18,821 nucleotides of DNA, taken from assembly GCA_026193555.1 (NCBI GenBank), contig JAPHUU010000124.1, positions 1-18,821 of the forward strand. The letters run 5' to 3'. The DNA comes from Rhodanobacter sp. (GTDB lineage: Bacteria; Pseudomonadota; Gammaproteobacteria; Xanthomonadales; Rhodanobacteraceae). Each line of letters starts with the position of its first letter. The first letter of the stretch is position 1. The position numbers and the translations under genes were made by a program. Positions 6,184-17,811 of this stretch are shown one piece after another. The notes below the pieces were generated by a model that was given only the letters and a program-made list of their open reading frames with translations, was not told the origin of the DNA and searched no databases.

Positions 6184-6221
6184 AAAAAAAGCCGCGGGGG
6201 GACTCCTGTCCGCCCGCGGCT
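6184..6221 (-). terminator. Strong intrinsic terminator with an AGGA loop
   Basis: On the minus strand the arms AGCCGCGGG (6221-6213) and CCCGCGGCT (6198-6190) pair perfectly. An upper stem GGAC/GTCC (6200-6211) is capped by the tetraloop AGGA, and seven Ts follow at 6190-6184. It is the best terminator in the window. It ends the structured RNA described next and, at about 210 nt, also the kinase transcript. The loop ACAGGAGT matches the core of a CsrA/RsmA site. Confidence 0.9.
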
Positions 6222-6384
6222 GCTCCGCTACCTGTTCGGATCCGGCGCGTGCGACAGGGTCGCAACAGGCCGGGTTGTCCACCCTGGTAGCGGCGAAACG
6301 GCATCCTTGCCGTTTTTCTCAGAGCCACCGTCCCCACGGCGACCCTGATCCGCTGTCTTGCGACGGCGGCTCCCCCACATCAAT
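6184..6384 (-). ncRNA. Candidate structured small RNA, GGA-rich (Csr/Rsm-sponge-like)
   Basis: About 200 nt, no reading frame of note, dense self-complementarity. Stems on the minus strand, 5' to 3': (1) GAGCCGCCGTC (6372-6362) with GACGGTGGCTC (6332-6322), 11 bp with one G-U; (2) AAACGGCA/TGCCGTTT (6315-6296) closed by an AGGA tetraloop in CAAGGATG context; (3) CCGCTACC (6293-6286) with GGTAGCGG (6232-6225), enclosing the hairpins GGGT-GGACA-ACCC (6284-6272) and TGCGAC-CCT-GTCGCA (6264-6250); (4) the terminator with another AGGA loop. Nine GGA triplets occur (about four expected by base composition), several in loops. CsrB/RsmZ-type RNAs bind the translational repressor CsrA/RsmA through such loops. 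That an RNA is made is well supported; the CsrA role is inference. It could instead be the 3' UTR of the kinase mRNA. 5' end estimated. Confidence 0.6.
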
Positions 6385-6390
6385 TACTGG

Positions 6391-6434
6391 ATGCTAACGA
6401 CGGCTTCACATTTCCGGAATAGGAAAAATTCCTA
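6391..6434 (-). promoter_or_regulatory. Palindromic operator and promoter candidate for the small RNA
   Basis: TAGGAATTTTTCCTA (6434-6420) is a perfect 6-bp inverted repeat of TAGGAA/TTCCTA, the type of half-site used by NarL-family regulators such as RcsB and BvgA. It abuts TTCCGG (6419-6414, poor -35), a 17-bp spacer and TAGCAT (6396-6391, 4 of 6 to the -10). The site would be centred near -43, as for an activator that compensates for a weak -35. It overlaps the kinase stop codon. Binding by the neighbouring regulator is inferred. Confidence 0.4.
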
Positions 6435-8036
6435 GTTCGTCCGATTCAGGCTGGTCTGGTCGATGTTGCTCCGCAACAGGATGCGCAGGTGGACTCCGGT
6501 ATGGCCAGCATCAGAGCGCAGCCGAAACTGGCCGCCCAGCGAAGTGACACGATCGCGCATGCCCTGCAATCCGCGCCCGGCCCGCGGTAGCCGGCCGGGC
6601 AGTCCAGTCCCGTTGTCCCTGATGTAGAGCAGCGCCATGGCGATGCCCTGTCGCTCGCCGATGCGCAGTCGCAACCTGAATTCGCTGGCCCGGGCGTGTT
6701 TGACGGCGTTCGTGGCACTTTCCTGCGCCAATCGGTAGATCGCCGTGCGGGTGTCGTCATCCAGCAGGTGTGGGTCGCCATGCAGCTCGGAGCGATAGGT
6801 CATGCCTGCCGCATGGAGCAGGTCCCTGATCGGCCCCTCGTCCAGCGCGCGCAGCAGTCCGAACTCGTCCAGAACCGCCGGGCGAAGATCGTCCAGCAGC
6901 CGGTGCAGGGCGCGGCGCATGTGGGCGAGAATGGCATTGATCGACGTGCTGATCTCCTCCAGACCGGACTGCAGCAGACGCGCCTGTGCCAGCTTCACAT
7001 GGGTCTGGATGGCCGTGATGTTCTGGCCCAGTTCGTCGTGCAGCTCCGCTGCCAGGTACCGACGCAGATTCTCGTCGGTCCGCAGATTGCCGCGGGCGGC
7101 GCCGCGTAGTTGATGGGCGAGCTGATCGAGACGGTGGTTGACAGTGGCCAGACGGACATTTTGTTCGGCCACCCGGGCACTGGTTCGGCGCAACGCATCG
7201 GTGGCCGAGCCGAGCATGATCGCACCGGTGCCGGCCACGGCAAGAAACAGGTAATCCGTTGCCGTCGATGGCGACAGCCCCAGCTGCCGATCGACCATGG
7301 TCATGCCGAGGCTGGAAATGATCATGGCCAGACTGGCGCCACGCCAGCCGTGGTGGAAGGCAAAAAACAACACCAGGGCCAGCGACAGGACACGTGCAAA
7401 TTGCGGCTGTGGCGCCGCCCGTGCGGACAGCGCGAGCAGCACGATCATGGCCGGCAAAAGCACCAGCAAACCGTCCTTGATCAGTTTGGACAACGGCCAC
7501 TGCTTGAGGCTGGTGCGCAGCGGCATGATCATGATCGGCACGATGAGCAGGATGCTGAGATAGTGGGTGAGCAGGTGCTGGCCCAGCTCGCGTGCCATGA
7601 CCTCCGATGATTCGGCAGTGTGCAGCACGGTAAGCATGGCGGCATCCACGGCGGTGGTCGCCATGATGACCAGCAATGCCGACAGCAGGAAACGGGACAC
7701 ATCCTGGGGGCGATTGAGGCTTGCGTGCACATTGAAGCGGCGCAGCACCCACAGTCCACCGGCCATGACCAGTGGGCCGGGCCCATGCTGGACGATGAAC
7801 GATTCCCACCCCAGCGGCACGTGCTGCAGCAGGTTGATGCCGGTGGTCGCTACCAGCTCTGCTCCGAGCAACCAGCCCCATCGGCGCACCGGCGTGAGAA
7901 GCAGCGCACCAAAGCGCAGCCCGTAAGGAAGCATCCAGTACGGTTGCACGGTCGGCTGAAGCAGCAGCCAGAGCAGCAGGTACCCCGCACCCAGCAGCGG
8001 TCCGGAGCTTGGCAGTCGAAGTGTTTTCAGGCGCAT
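6432..8036 (-). CDS. Membrane histidine kinase, MASE1-like sensor + HisKA_3 (UhpB type)
   Basis: A 534-aa protein. Residues about 12-280 contain around eight hydrophobic segments resembling the MASE1 integral-membrane sensor domain found in UhpB-type kinases. A coiled linker (285-325) leads to the HisKA_3 phosphoacceptor helix with H333 in LAAELHDELGQNI. The ATPase domain follows, with the N-box at N443 (ESATNAVKHA), DNGTGL (474-479) and GRGLQGMRDR (487-496). All catalytic motifs are intact. It should phosphorylate the UhpA/NarL-type regulator encoded divergently 105 bp away. The ligand is unknown: no sugar-phosphate or other transporter adjoins, so the name uhpB is not justified. The ATG at 8036 has a weak ribosome-binding site. 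Its stop lies inside the palindrome preceding the small RNA. Confidence 0.9.
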   Translation of the reverse strand: MRLKTLRLPSSGPLLGAGYLLLWLLLQPTVQPYWMLPYGLRFGALLLTPVRRWGWLLGAELVATTGINLLQHVPLGWESFIVQHGPGPLVMAGGLWVLRRFNVHASLNRPQDVSRFLLSALLVIMATTAVDAAMLTVLHTAESSEVMARELGQHLLTHYLSILLIVPIMIMPLRTSLKQWPLSKLIKDGLLVLLPAMIVLLALSARAAPQPQFARVLSLALVLFFAFHHGWRGASLAMIISSLGMTMVDRQLGLSPSTATDYLFLAVAGTGAIMLGSATDALRRTSARVAEQNVRLATVNHRLDQLAHQLRGAARGNLRTDENLRRYLAAELHDELGQNITAIQTHVKLAQARLLQSGLEEISTSINAILAHMRRALHRLLDDLRPAVLDEFGLLRALDEGPIRDLLHAAGMTYRSELHGDPHLLDDDTRTAIYRLAQESATNAVKHARASEFRLRLRIGERQGIAMALLYIRDNGTGLPGRLPRAGRGLQGMRDRVTSLGGQFRLRSDAGHTGVHLRILLRSNIDQTSLNRTN

Positions 8037-8141
8037 CCACGCATGGTACAGCTGCGGTCAGTGCCGGTGCAGCAGGTGCCCTGCCAGTGCGATCGGGTCC
8101 GCCGGCTTTGGGCTTCGAAATGAATGTGTCAAAGTAGAAAG

Positions 8142-8777
8142 ATGCACAGCATTGTTCTGATTGACGACCACGCCATCGTTCGTGAAGGCTTCAAACGACT
8201 GATCGAGCTCGAGCCCGACCTGGAAGTGGTGGCCGAATGCCGCAATGCAGACGATGCGGTGGAAGCGGTCGGACGGTGGTGCCCCAACCTGGTGGCACTG
8301 GATCTGTCGTTGCCCGATGGCAGCGGCCTGCCGTTGATCGAGCATCTGCTGAGCGTGTCGGCGGGTACGCGCATCGTGGTGTTGAGCATGCACGACGGCG
8401 ACCCCTACGTGTCCGAGGCATTGCGGCGGGGCGCCAGCGGTTACGTCACCAAGGGCGTGGCCCCGGAGGAACTGGTGGCCGGTTTGCGCGCGGTGATGCA
8501 GGGGGAGTGTTTTCTGAGTTCGGACCTGCGCCAGCGTCGCGCCGAACGGTCAAGCGGGTCGCTGGATCCGATGACCCGGCTCACCGCTCGCGAAGGCGAA
8601 GTGTTCCTGCTGCTGGCAGAGGGCCTGGCGCCCAAGCAGGTCGCCGCCGAACTGGGCATCGGGCAGAAAACGGTCTACATCCATCGCGCCAGCCTGATGG
8701 GTAAGCTGGGCGCGGGTTCGGAACTGGAGCTGTACCGGATGGCGAGCGAACGCGGGCTGCTGCCGGTCAAGCGGTAA
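8142..8777 (+). CDS. NarL/UhpA-type response regulator (REC + LuxR HTH)
   Basis: A 211-aa protein. The receiver domain (1-118) has the acidic pair D8/D9, phosphoacceptor D54 (ALDLSLPDG), S82 and K104, all canonical. The LuxR-type helix-turn-helix (about 145-205) reads LTAREGEVFLLLAEGLAPKQVAAELGIGQKTVYIHRASLM in outline. The whole protein resembles UhpA more than GacA/UvrY. ATG 8142 was chosen because it gives the normal receiver start MHSIVLIDDH; ATG 8124 would add six residues and neither start has a strong ribosome-binding site. It is divergent from the kinase, its presumed partner, and convergent with recN (35 bp). Such dimeric regulators bind short inverted repeats; the TAGGAA/TTCCTA palindrome at 6420-6434 is the only good candidate I noticed nearby. 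Confidence 0.92.
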   Translation: MHSIVLIDDHAIVREGFKRLIELEPDLEVVAECRNADDAVEAVGRWCPNLVALDLSLPDGSGLPLIEHLLSVSAGTRIVVLSMHDGDPYVSEALRRGASGYVTKGVAPEELVAGLRAVMQGECFLSSDLRQRRAERSSGSLDPMTRLTAREGEVFLLLAEGLAPKQVAAELGIGQKTVYIHRASLMGKLGAGSELELYRMASERGLLPVKR

Positions 8778-16488: not shown

Positions 16489-16589
16489 AACCTGGCGAGC
16501 CCCGCAGGTATGGATTCCCGGGTGATCGGCATGCCGCTCGCCATCGGCGGATCTTGTATCGCGATGCGGGCAAAGCTACGATGCGCCGG

Positions 16590-16726
16590 TTGTCATTGGG
16601 GAGTAGCCAGCCTCGTCCCCTGAGGCGTTCGCATCAACACACTTGGTCGGCTGTGAACCACGGCCCCATGGTGCGAACAGCGATCGATACACTCCGGTGT
16701 CGATACGCCCGGCGAGACCTTTGGCC
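16590..16726 (+). ncRNA. yybP-ykoY manganese riboswitch
   Basis: The 5' conserved loop GGGGAGTAGCC (16598-16608) and the 3' conserved GGCGAGACCTTT (16711-16722) are the two halves of the Mn2+-binding pocket of this class. Between them are the stem GCCTC/GAGGC (about 16610-16626) and an arm closed by GTTCGCA/TGCGAAC with the internal TCAACA...CATGG typical of the class (as in E. coli mntP). The stem ATCGA..ACAC/GTGT..CGAT follows. The family senses Mn2+ and normally turns on Mn exporters. It lies directly upstream of a CaCA-type cation antiporter. Confidence 0.9.
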
Positions 16727-16745: not shown

Positions 16746-16790
16746 CCGGGCGAGCGATGTCGTTGTGCCAACGGTATTGCGCTCGCCCGG
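16746..16790 (+). promoter_or_regulatory. Expression-platform hairpin of the Mn riboswitch
   Basis: CCGGGCGAGCG (16746-16756) pairs perfectly over 11 bp with CGCTCGCCCGG (16780-16790), with an inner CGTT/AACG. No U-run follows. The hairpin ends 4 nt before the ATG at 16795 and encloses the alternative GTG start at 16765. An alternative pairing, CGACAT (16728-16733) with ATGTCG (16757-16762), competes with it and would link it to the aptamer's 3' end. Control of translation or Rho-dependent termination is inferred. Confidence 0.55.
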
Positions 16791-16794
16791 CTCG

Positions 16795-17811
16795 ATGCAT
16801 CCCATGCTGATTACGTGGTGTCTTTTCATCGTCTCCGCCGGCGCGATTTATGCTGCCAGCGAATATTTCGCCAATGGCATCGAGTGGCTCGGCCACAAGG
16901 CCGGGATCGGTGCTACCGCCACCGGCACCGTGCTGGCAGCTTTTGGCACTGCGCTGCCCGAGACCGCGGTGACCTTTGTGGCCGTCGTATTCGGCAAGAC
17001 GCCGCAGGCGCGTGACATCGGTGTTGGCGCCGCCATGGGCGGGCCGCTGGTGCTGGCCACGATTTCCTACGCGGTCGTTGGCGTGGCGCTCTTGTGCAAT
17101 CAGCGACGCCTCAAACGAGCCGATCAGGTTCTGCGGGTCGACAGCCGGCGACTGGCGCGGGACCAATCGTGGTTCCTGGCCATATTCGTGGTCAAGTTCG
17201 GGCTGGGTCTGGTGGCATTCGCCATCAAGCCGTGGCTGGGGCTGTTGTTCCTGGCCGCCTACGCAGCCTACGCATGGCGCGAATTGCGCAGCAACGACAG
17301 TGCACCCATCGACGAAATACTGGAGCCGTTGAAACTTCGTCCCGGTTCCCCTGATCCAGGCTGGCGCTGGGTGCTCGTGCAGACCGTCGCCGCGTTGCTG
17401 TTGATTGCCGCAGCCTCGCGCCTGTTTGTCACCCAACTGGAGGCGATTGGATGGGTGTTGGGGATGCCTGCGCATCTGGTGGCCCTGATGTTGAGCCCGG
17501 TTGCCACCGAGTTGCCGGAAACCGTCAACGCAATGATTTGGGTGCGTCAAGGCAAGGAGCGCCTTGCTCTGGCCAATATCTCCGGTGCCATGATGATCCA
17601 GGCCACCATTCCCAGTTCGCTGGGGTTGTTCGCGACTCCCTGGCTGTTTGACGCGCCTCTGATCGCGGCTGGAGCATTGACCATCGCCGCGGTGGCGCAT
17701 CTTTGGTGGCTCTTCCGCGGCGGCGAGGTCAAGGCGCGCAGGTTGTTGCCGGTAGCGTTGCTTTATGTCGCATTTGCCGTGTTCATCGTGGGTCGCGCAA
17801 GCCACTCATGA
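16795..17811 (+). CDS. CaCA-family cation antiporter, probable Mn2+ exporter
   Basis: About 338 aa with around ten hydrophobic segments. It is an inner-membrane Ca2+/cation antiporter-type protein with both diagnostic alpha repeats: GTVLAAFGTALPETAVT near the N-terminus and LSPVATELPETVNAMIW in the second half, each with the ion-coordinating LPE acidic residue. The first loop is cytosolic and Arg/Lys-rich. The upstream manganese riboswitch indicates that it relieves Mn2+ excess rather than handling Ca2+; this rests on riboswitch family knowledge. The start is uncertain: ATG 16795 is taken, with ATG 16804 and GTG 16765 also possible, and none has a clear ribosome-binding site. It is convergent with the 2OG oxygenase, only 16 bp apart. 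Confidence 0.85.
   Translation: MHPMLITWCLFIVSAGAIYAASEYFANGIEWLGHKAGIGATATGTVLAAFGTALPETAVTFVAVVFGKTPQARDIGVGAAMGGPLVLATISYAVVGVALLCNQRRLKRADQVLRVDSRRLARDQSWFLAIFVVKFGLGLVAFAIKPWLGLLFLAAYAAYAWRELRSNDSAPIDEILEPLKLRPGSPDPGWRWVLVQTVAALLLIAAASRLFVTQLEAIGWVLGMPAHLVALMLSPVATELPETVNAMIWVRQGKERLALANISGAMMIQATIPSSLGLFATPWLFDAPLIAAGALTIAAVAHLWWLFRGGEVKARRLLPVALLYVAFAVFIVGRASHS

Follow-up and report, generated by a model that had tools for sequence, protein, structure and literature searches.

The window analysed here, an 18,821-nucleotide stretch of Rhodanobacter sp. DNA, carries genes for a UhpB-like sensor kinase and a UhpA-like response regulator of the LuxR type, and a small RNA locus directly 3′ of the kinase gene on the same, minus strand (Table 1). 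The kinase stop codon occupies 6434-6432. The regulator scored 152 bits against UhpA (cut-off 258), 151 bits against MctR (cut-off 300), and 122 bits against UvrY/GacA (cut-off 280), all under the cut-offs. With UhpA as the best match, the flanking LuxR-type system differs from GacA/UvrY, as the earlier note on this DNA had stated. A separate GacA-like regulator (215 bits, cut-off 280) is encoded at G000:C112 between gyrA-like and rne-like genes. The window also contains a manganese (yybP-ykoY) riboswitch (16586-16704, plus strand, 55.8 bits) just upstream of an open reading frame (16765-17811) that appears to resemble a cation/calcium antiporter.

Table 1. Features of the small RNA locus and the flanking two-component system
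Feature	Position	Strand	Basis or remarks
Palindromic box AGGAATTTTTCC, possible activator site	6422..6433	minus	centre ~-43 from the estimated start
-10-like element TAGCAT (family consensus TAGGAT)	6391..6396	minus	consensus reading
Small RNA, ~201 nt	6184..6384	minus	start estimated via the -10-like element; end is the T-run
Hairpin 1	6351..6368	minus	7 consensus pairs, 99.7% of cells paired, two-sided changes in 4 pairs
Hairpin 2, apex CGTGGGGACG, GGGG loop 6332-6335	6320..6347	minus	11 pairs counted, 96.6% paired, 6 two-sided
Hairpin 3, loop word CAAGGATG (6302-6309)	6297..6314	minus	6 pairs, 98.1% paired, 3 two-sided
Long-range stem (6284-6295 with 6223-6234) around a variable middle	6223..6295	minus	helices 4 and 5
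Intrinsic terminator, apex GGACAGGAGTC, AGGA 6204-6207, T-run 6184-6190	6184..6220	minus	7 pairs counted, 96.3% paired, 3 two-sided
Sensor kinase, MASE1-HisKA_3-HATPase_c, UhpB-like	6432..8036	minus	Pfam; NCBIfam UhpB 172 bits, cut-off 408
LuxR-type response regulator, UhpA-like	8124..8777	plus	Pfam Response_reg and GerE

Structure, strand, conservation, box, terminator, GGA loops, and csrA presence were computed here. The kinase scan returned 78 named loci, 76 of them close (Rhodanobacter, Dyella, Frateuria, Fulvimonas, and metagenome bins), and in 71 of these the RNA follows the kinase gene directly 3′, in the same orientation. Of the other five loci, two are cut by contig ends (L050 and L102), and in three (L055, L065, and L084) the kinase orthologue is followed by other sequence, with no RNA directly downstream. 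A set of 81 loci, the window included, was aligned and 80 distinct RNA copies were extracted; 54 of these (36 from named loci, 17 from unnamed loci, and the window) form alignment A1, from which covariance model R1 was built. R1 matches of 19-22 bits occur ~3.5-3.8 kb away at L065 and L084.

BLAST searches with the 251-nt sequence (E <= 0.01) gave matches in 155 of 233 family genomes, 139 at 2e-6 or better and 16 weak (2e-4 to 0.01). The R1 scan of the order, which ran with stricter filters that lose weak matches, returned 99 of 398 genomes; 97 scored at least 67 bits and all belong to the family of the window. Strong matches are single in each genome. The weak matches were to G227 and G384 at ~20-22 bits, and G105 has a second match of 20.7 bits; the G227 match and the second G105 match are lone GGA hairpins and not the entire RNA. 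Occurrence in other families of the order was rejected, since the sole match there (G384, 20.4 bits) is a single GGA hairpin and not the whole RNA. Kinase relatives of 28-39% identity were found in 22 of the 149 genomes of the family of G233, and R1 had no match at E < 0.3 in the 28 loci read. The earlier note had called the RNA unannotated, and a search of Rfam with the window RNA returned no family at its gathering score, Csr-type families included; the 12 loci examined among the 76 close named ones gave the same result. The locus is a real, conserved RNA family that is absent from Rfam. In a family genome lacking a kinase match, a GGACAGGAGUCC hairpin (L176:3937-4018, minus strand) lies right before a ribosome-site-like GAGGAGG and the ATG of an open reading frame like those of sigma-54-type regulators, and it may resemble a CsrA target leader.

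Covariation was measured in A1, which was aligned by sequence. The consensus has 37 pairs with 96.5% of the cells paired, and two-sided changes occur in 20 pairs (178 such cells). None of 500 shuffles reached any of five covariation measures. When the partners were slid 1-3 columns out of register, 34-48% of the cells were paired and 19-41 had two-sided changes. The shuffle ignores relatedness and the slide retains it, but the structure was derived from A1, which favours the unslid version. The check proposed in the earlier note, a covariance model of kinase-downstream regions with a covariation test, returned strong covariation. Hairpin 1 has its seven pairs in the family consensus and is weaker in the window, hairpin 2 is ~12-13 bp long, and hairpin 3 is ~8 bp with an AGGA loop. 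Helices 4 and 5 are 95.4% and 89.3% paired, with two-sided changes in 4 of the 6 pairs. The stem-loops that had been described by eye, ending in a terminator with a seven-T tail, were recovered with a corrected layout of hairpins 1 to 3, the long-range stem, and the terminator. Two AGGA loops were found where they had been described, in hairpin 3 and in the terminator, as were nine GGA triplets within 199 nt. The third loop that had been claimed, GGACA, falls in the variable middle and is not kept in A1; the GGA columns kept in at least 80% of copies are five others.

The predicted fold of 6434-6184 has an energy of -121.9 kcal/mol by RNAfold (z = -5.0), and none of 200 shuffles was as low. 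The plus strand of the same span has a comparable fold given its composition (z = -5.2), so folding energy does not pick the strand. G-U combinations outnumber A-C combinations by 142 cells to 22 in the paired columns of A1, which identifies the RNA as the minus strand. An RNA on the plus strand was rejected on this bias and on the absence of a T-run at that end. Fold, covariation, and the G-U/A-C bias agree with the original placement of a structured RNA downstream of the kinase gene and on its strand. A length of ~200 nt was also confirmed, but not the span of 6184 to 6434: the first 50 nt of 6434-6184 are promoter-like, and the discrete RNA accordingly extends from ~6384 to 6184. A simple scanner reported neither a terminator nor a promoter between 5800 and 6700; the GC-rich terminator stem and the T-run were read from sequence and fold.

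The promoter-like block was compared across the 81 aligned loci. The palindromic box is 84-100% conserved per column, except for the A/T column and the flanking G. The first T, the A, and the last T of the -10-like element are present at 100% of the loci, and the blocks CGTGAA and TTCGTTA are mostly 84-100% conserved. The promoter spacer (6397-6411) holds a second, mostly invariant block with the family pattern CGTGAA-N5-TTCGT. Among 45 genomes of the genus, 35 have the box pattern TAGGAAWTTTTCCNATNCC, with one mismatch allowed, at a single site, which is always at the RNA; the other 10 have none at one mismatch, and a reversed-pattern control gave 0. Autoregulation via the AGGAAwTTTTCC box was considered and rejected, there being no other exact box within the window. 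Activators of the LuxR-type regulator class can sit near -43, and the GacA-type box word is TGTAAGN6CTTACA. That word, with up to 3 mismatches, occurs in the window at two chance-level sites, neither upstream of the RNA. A GacA-type box at the RNA was rejected; the word is absent upstream and the conserved box is a different one.

Four genomes have the RNA and its box, which persists as GGGAATTTTTCC, away from the kinase gene (loci L170, L171, L187, and L188; neighbour names were read from open reading frames). The RNA and box adjoin a recN-like gene in G168, where the kinase (E <= 1e-60) and a regulator orthologue (best match 36% identity) were not found. An orthologue of the two-component system was likewise not found in G169, where the best regulator match is 34%. 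The RNA adjoins a MerR/copper-ATPase-like locus in G169, G184, and G185, and the regulator gene of G184 and G185 is on another contig. The presence of RNA and box without an adjoining kinase in these four genomes suggests that the RNA is its own unit.

Activation of the RNA by the adjacent UhpA-like regulator, which would presumably bind the box, is an evenly balanced proposition. The private box and the close linkage argue for the control by the flanking system that the earlier note had put forward. Against it, G168 and G169 have the RNA and box without the pair, and L055, L065, and L084 have the kinase without an adjacent RNA. The box in G168 and G169 is maintained by something besides a neighbouring pair, unless these genomes (96-99% complete) have recent losses or gaps. 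Gac-type control of the RNA is also conceivable, given the GacA-like regulator at G000:C112.

The conserved apical GGA loop words are CAGGA(U/A/C)G and ACAGGAGU. Among the 54 A1 copies, the loop word of hairpin 3 is CAGGA(U/A/C)G in 50 and a CAAGGA form in 4, which include the window. The apices of the terminator and of hairpin 2 are present in 54/54 copies. Five GGA positions are column-constant in at least 51 of the 54, and the mean is 7.6 GGA per copy. Every one of the 54 folded copies contains two or more GGA hairpin loops, vs 5.9% of 1080 dinucleotide shuffles. The window alone is matched in GGA loops by 58 of 1000 shuffles, which means that the family carries the argument and not the single sequence; its A(N)GGA loops are matched by 8 of 1000. 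The available text of PMC7652899 gives the CsrB repeat as CAGGA(U/A/C)G in hairpin loops and the SELEX consensus as RUACARGGAUGU. Sequestration requires several GGA motifs, according to the part of PMC2375449 consulted. A single csrA gene is present in the genome of the window, and its product is identical at 49 of 56 residues to a solved carbon storage regulator (1y00_A), with Arg44 kept. csrA was found in 215 of 227 family genomes, and this near-universal presence is necessary but not discriminating.

Several observations temper a CsrA reading. Only two canonical hairpin loops are present per copy in most copies, and binding is weaker for RNAs that have just one or two GGA motifs than for the classical Csr RNAs, according to the accessible portion of the review PMC11882849. 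Very stable hairpins may be unfavourable, the review adds; the stems here are long, which weighs against CsrA binding. In the accessible sections of PMC7694677, all four predicted GGA motifs of Xanthomonas RsmU were changed with RsmA binding and function both retained, so the presence of GGA words does not by itself prove the case. The most invariant element, the CGUGGGGACG hairpin (hairpin 2), is not a canonical CsrA site.

The RNA is reshaped where the kinase is ~50% identical. Twelve divergent copies were collected from 8 of 10 regions and four other loci, with RNA ends set by script; L225 (contig end) and L224 (no box within one substitution) were left out. Eleven of the 12 have 2-4 GGA hairpin loops, at least two of them A(N)GGA loops, and the A(N)GGA loop count of each was matched by 0 or 1 of 200 shuffles. 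Random 199-nt windows from named loci had at least two GGA loops in 16 of 1140 cases and at least two A(N)GGA loops in 1 of 1140. Most divergent copies keep CGUGGGGACG or close forms of it. The G092 copy (L179:2439-2627, minus strand) keeps GUGGGGAC and has zero GGA hairpin loops. Stems and layout that change while loops stay are what a protein-titrating RNA would be predicted to exhibit, and G092 is an unexplained exception.

Taken as a Csr/Rsm sponge, the RNA would be made from a regulated promoter, the palindromic box of which is centred ~43 nt before the estimated start, and would fold so that hairpin tips display CAGGA(N)G and the second conserved loop word, plus further GGAs. It would end at an intrinsic terminator whose loop is itself a putative GGA site. 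CsrA dimers would bind the GGA loops and be withdrawn from mRNA leaders. From these sequence comparisons, we infer that the RNA is probably transcribed, bound by CsrA, and able to sequester it. The earlier note had proposed the same function, and the proposal gains from covarying stems with persistent GGA loops, loop words that match published motifs, survival of the loops in most reshaped relatives, and the presence of csrA. It does not account for G092, with no GGA hairpin loop, or for a most invariant hairpin that is not a canonical CsrA site.

That hairpin is central to two alternatives. The G-rich 5′ segment UGUGGGGGA and the GGGG loop of hairpin 2 could pair with C-rich mRNAs, perhaps with Hfq at the U-tail and with the GGAs incidental. 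The invariance of the hairpin 2 apex in A1, the survival of its word in most divergent copies, and a 5′ GGGGGA in 54/54 copies fit such a base-pairing RNA. It is nonetheless unlikely, as it leaves the kept CAGGANG and ACAGGAGU loops and the new A(N)GGA loops of reshaped copies unexplained, and the 5′ run is GGGGGT instead of GGGGGA in G169, G184, and G185. Alternatively, the RNA could bind another protein through the invariant GUGGGGAC hairpin and resemble CsrA sites only in part, which the G092 copy favours by retaining GUGGGGAC and losing the GGA hairpin loops. The loop words match the CsrB repeat closely, and 11 of the 12 divergent copies have A(N)GGA loops far above chance, which makes this a slim prospect.

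The position directly after the kinase gene in 71 of 76 named loci would also suit a structured end of the kinase mRNA, serving as its 3′ UTR and terminator and giving rise to a separate RNA, at most, by processing of that transcript. This is very improbable: there is hardly any variation in the promoter-like block that separates kinase and RNA, RNA and box occur without the kinase in G168 and G169, and the RNA is on a different contig from the regulator gene in G184 and G185. A short leaderless peptide beginning at the conserved ATGTGGGGG has in its favour ten similar first codons and variation in columns 4-33 that peaks at third positions, but it is hardly credible, since the third-position excess includes the covarying pair 18-33, the frame is common to 46/54 copies at column 54 and 22/54 at column 90, and it stops at 20 to 53 codons in 23/54 and runs through the terminator in 31/54.

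Sequestration of CsrA as the function of this RNA would have consequences for the group. According to the text of PMC7694677 that was available, sequenced Xanthomonas genomes lack homologues of the CsrA/RsmA-sequestering RNAs known elsewhere. The RNA is found across much of a family related to Xanthomonas and would supply a CsrA antagonist there. A search of the literature on CsrA and Rsm in Rhodanobacter and Dyella, with subscription journals mostly outside its coverage, yielded no description of such an RNA. Should the flanking system drive the RNA, a different sensor family is wired to the Csr switch. A more speculative and rather doubtful extension is a Csr branch belonging to the Rhodanobacteraceae, in which a UhpAB-like (MASE1) system would have a CsrA-trapping RNA as its chief or only output through a private box replacing Gac control, and the GUGGGGAC hairpin would have a second function beyond CsrA titration.

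Known Csr/Rsm RNAs were compared with the family by model and by description. CsrB (RF00018) and PrrB_RsmZ (RF00166) were the two models used for whole genomes, and each was over its cut-off in 0 of 31 genomes. In 14 control genomes CsrB was over cut-off in one and RsmZ in none, so the RsmZ search has no positive control. A sub-threshold match to asX1 (22.4 bits, gathering score 70) lies for the most part in the terminator half. The best sub-threshold member of the clan is RsmW of Pseudomonas aeruginosa (RF02809), with which the RNA shares an AGGA-loop hairpin followed by a GGA-looped terminator; at 20.4 bits vs a gathering score of 52 (E 0.47) it is not a member by score. RsmU of Xanthomonas campestris, as presented in the accessible text of PMC7694677, is similar by description in coming from the same order, lying outside the known families, and following a coding sequence, and it binds RsmA. 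As that text has it, RsmU is processed from the 3′ UTR of a comEA mRNA and is reported only in Xanthomonas, whereas the Rhodanobacter RNA is predicted to be a stand-alone unit by a two-component system. The reading frame across the Rhodanobacter RNA is not kept, its terminator is defined by sequence and covariation, and the kinase is separated from it in four genomes. Unlike CsrB/CsrC and RsmX/RsmY/RsmZ of gammaproteobacteria, it has an invariant GUGGGGAC hairpin, only two canonical hairpin loops in the majority of copies, an AGGAAwTTTTCC box with no GacA-type word upstream of it, and a neighbour that is UhpAB-like and not BarA/UvrY-like. Like them, it is a structured RNA, predicted to stand alone, with an intrinsic terminator, several GGA motifs with CAGGANG in hairpin loops, an upstream palindromic box, and a LuxR-type response regulator nearby.
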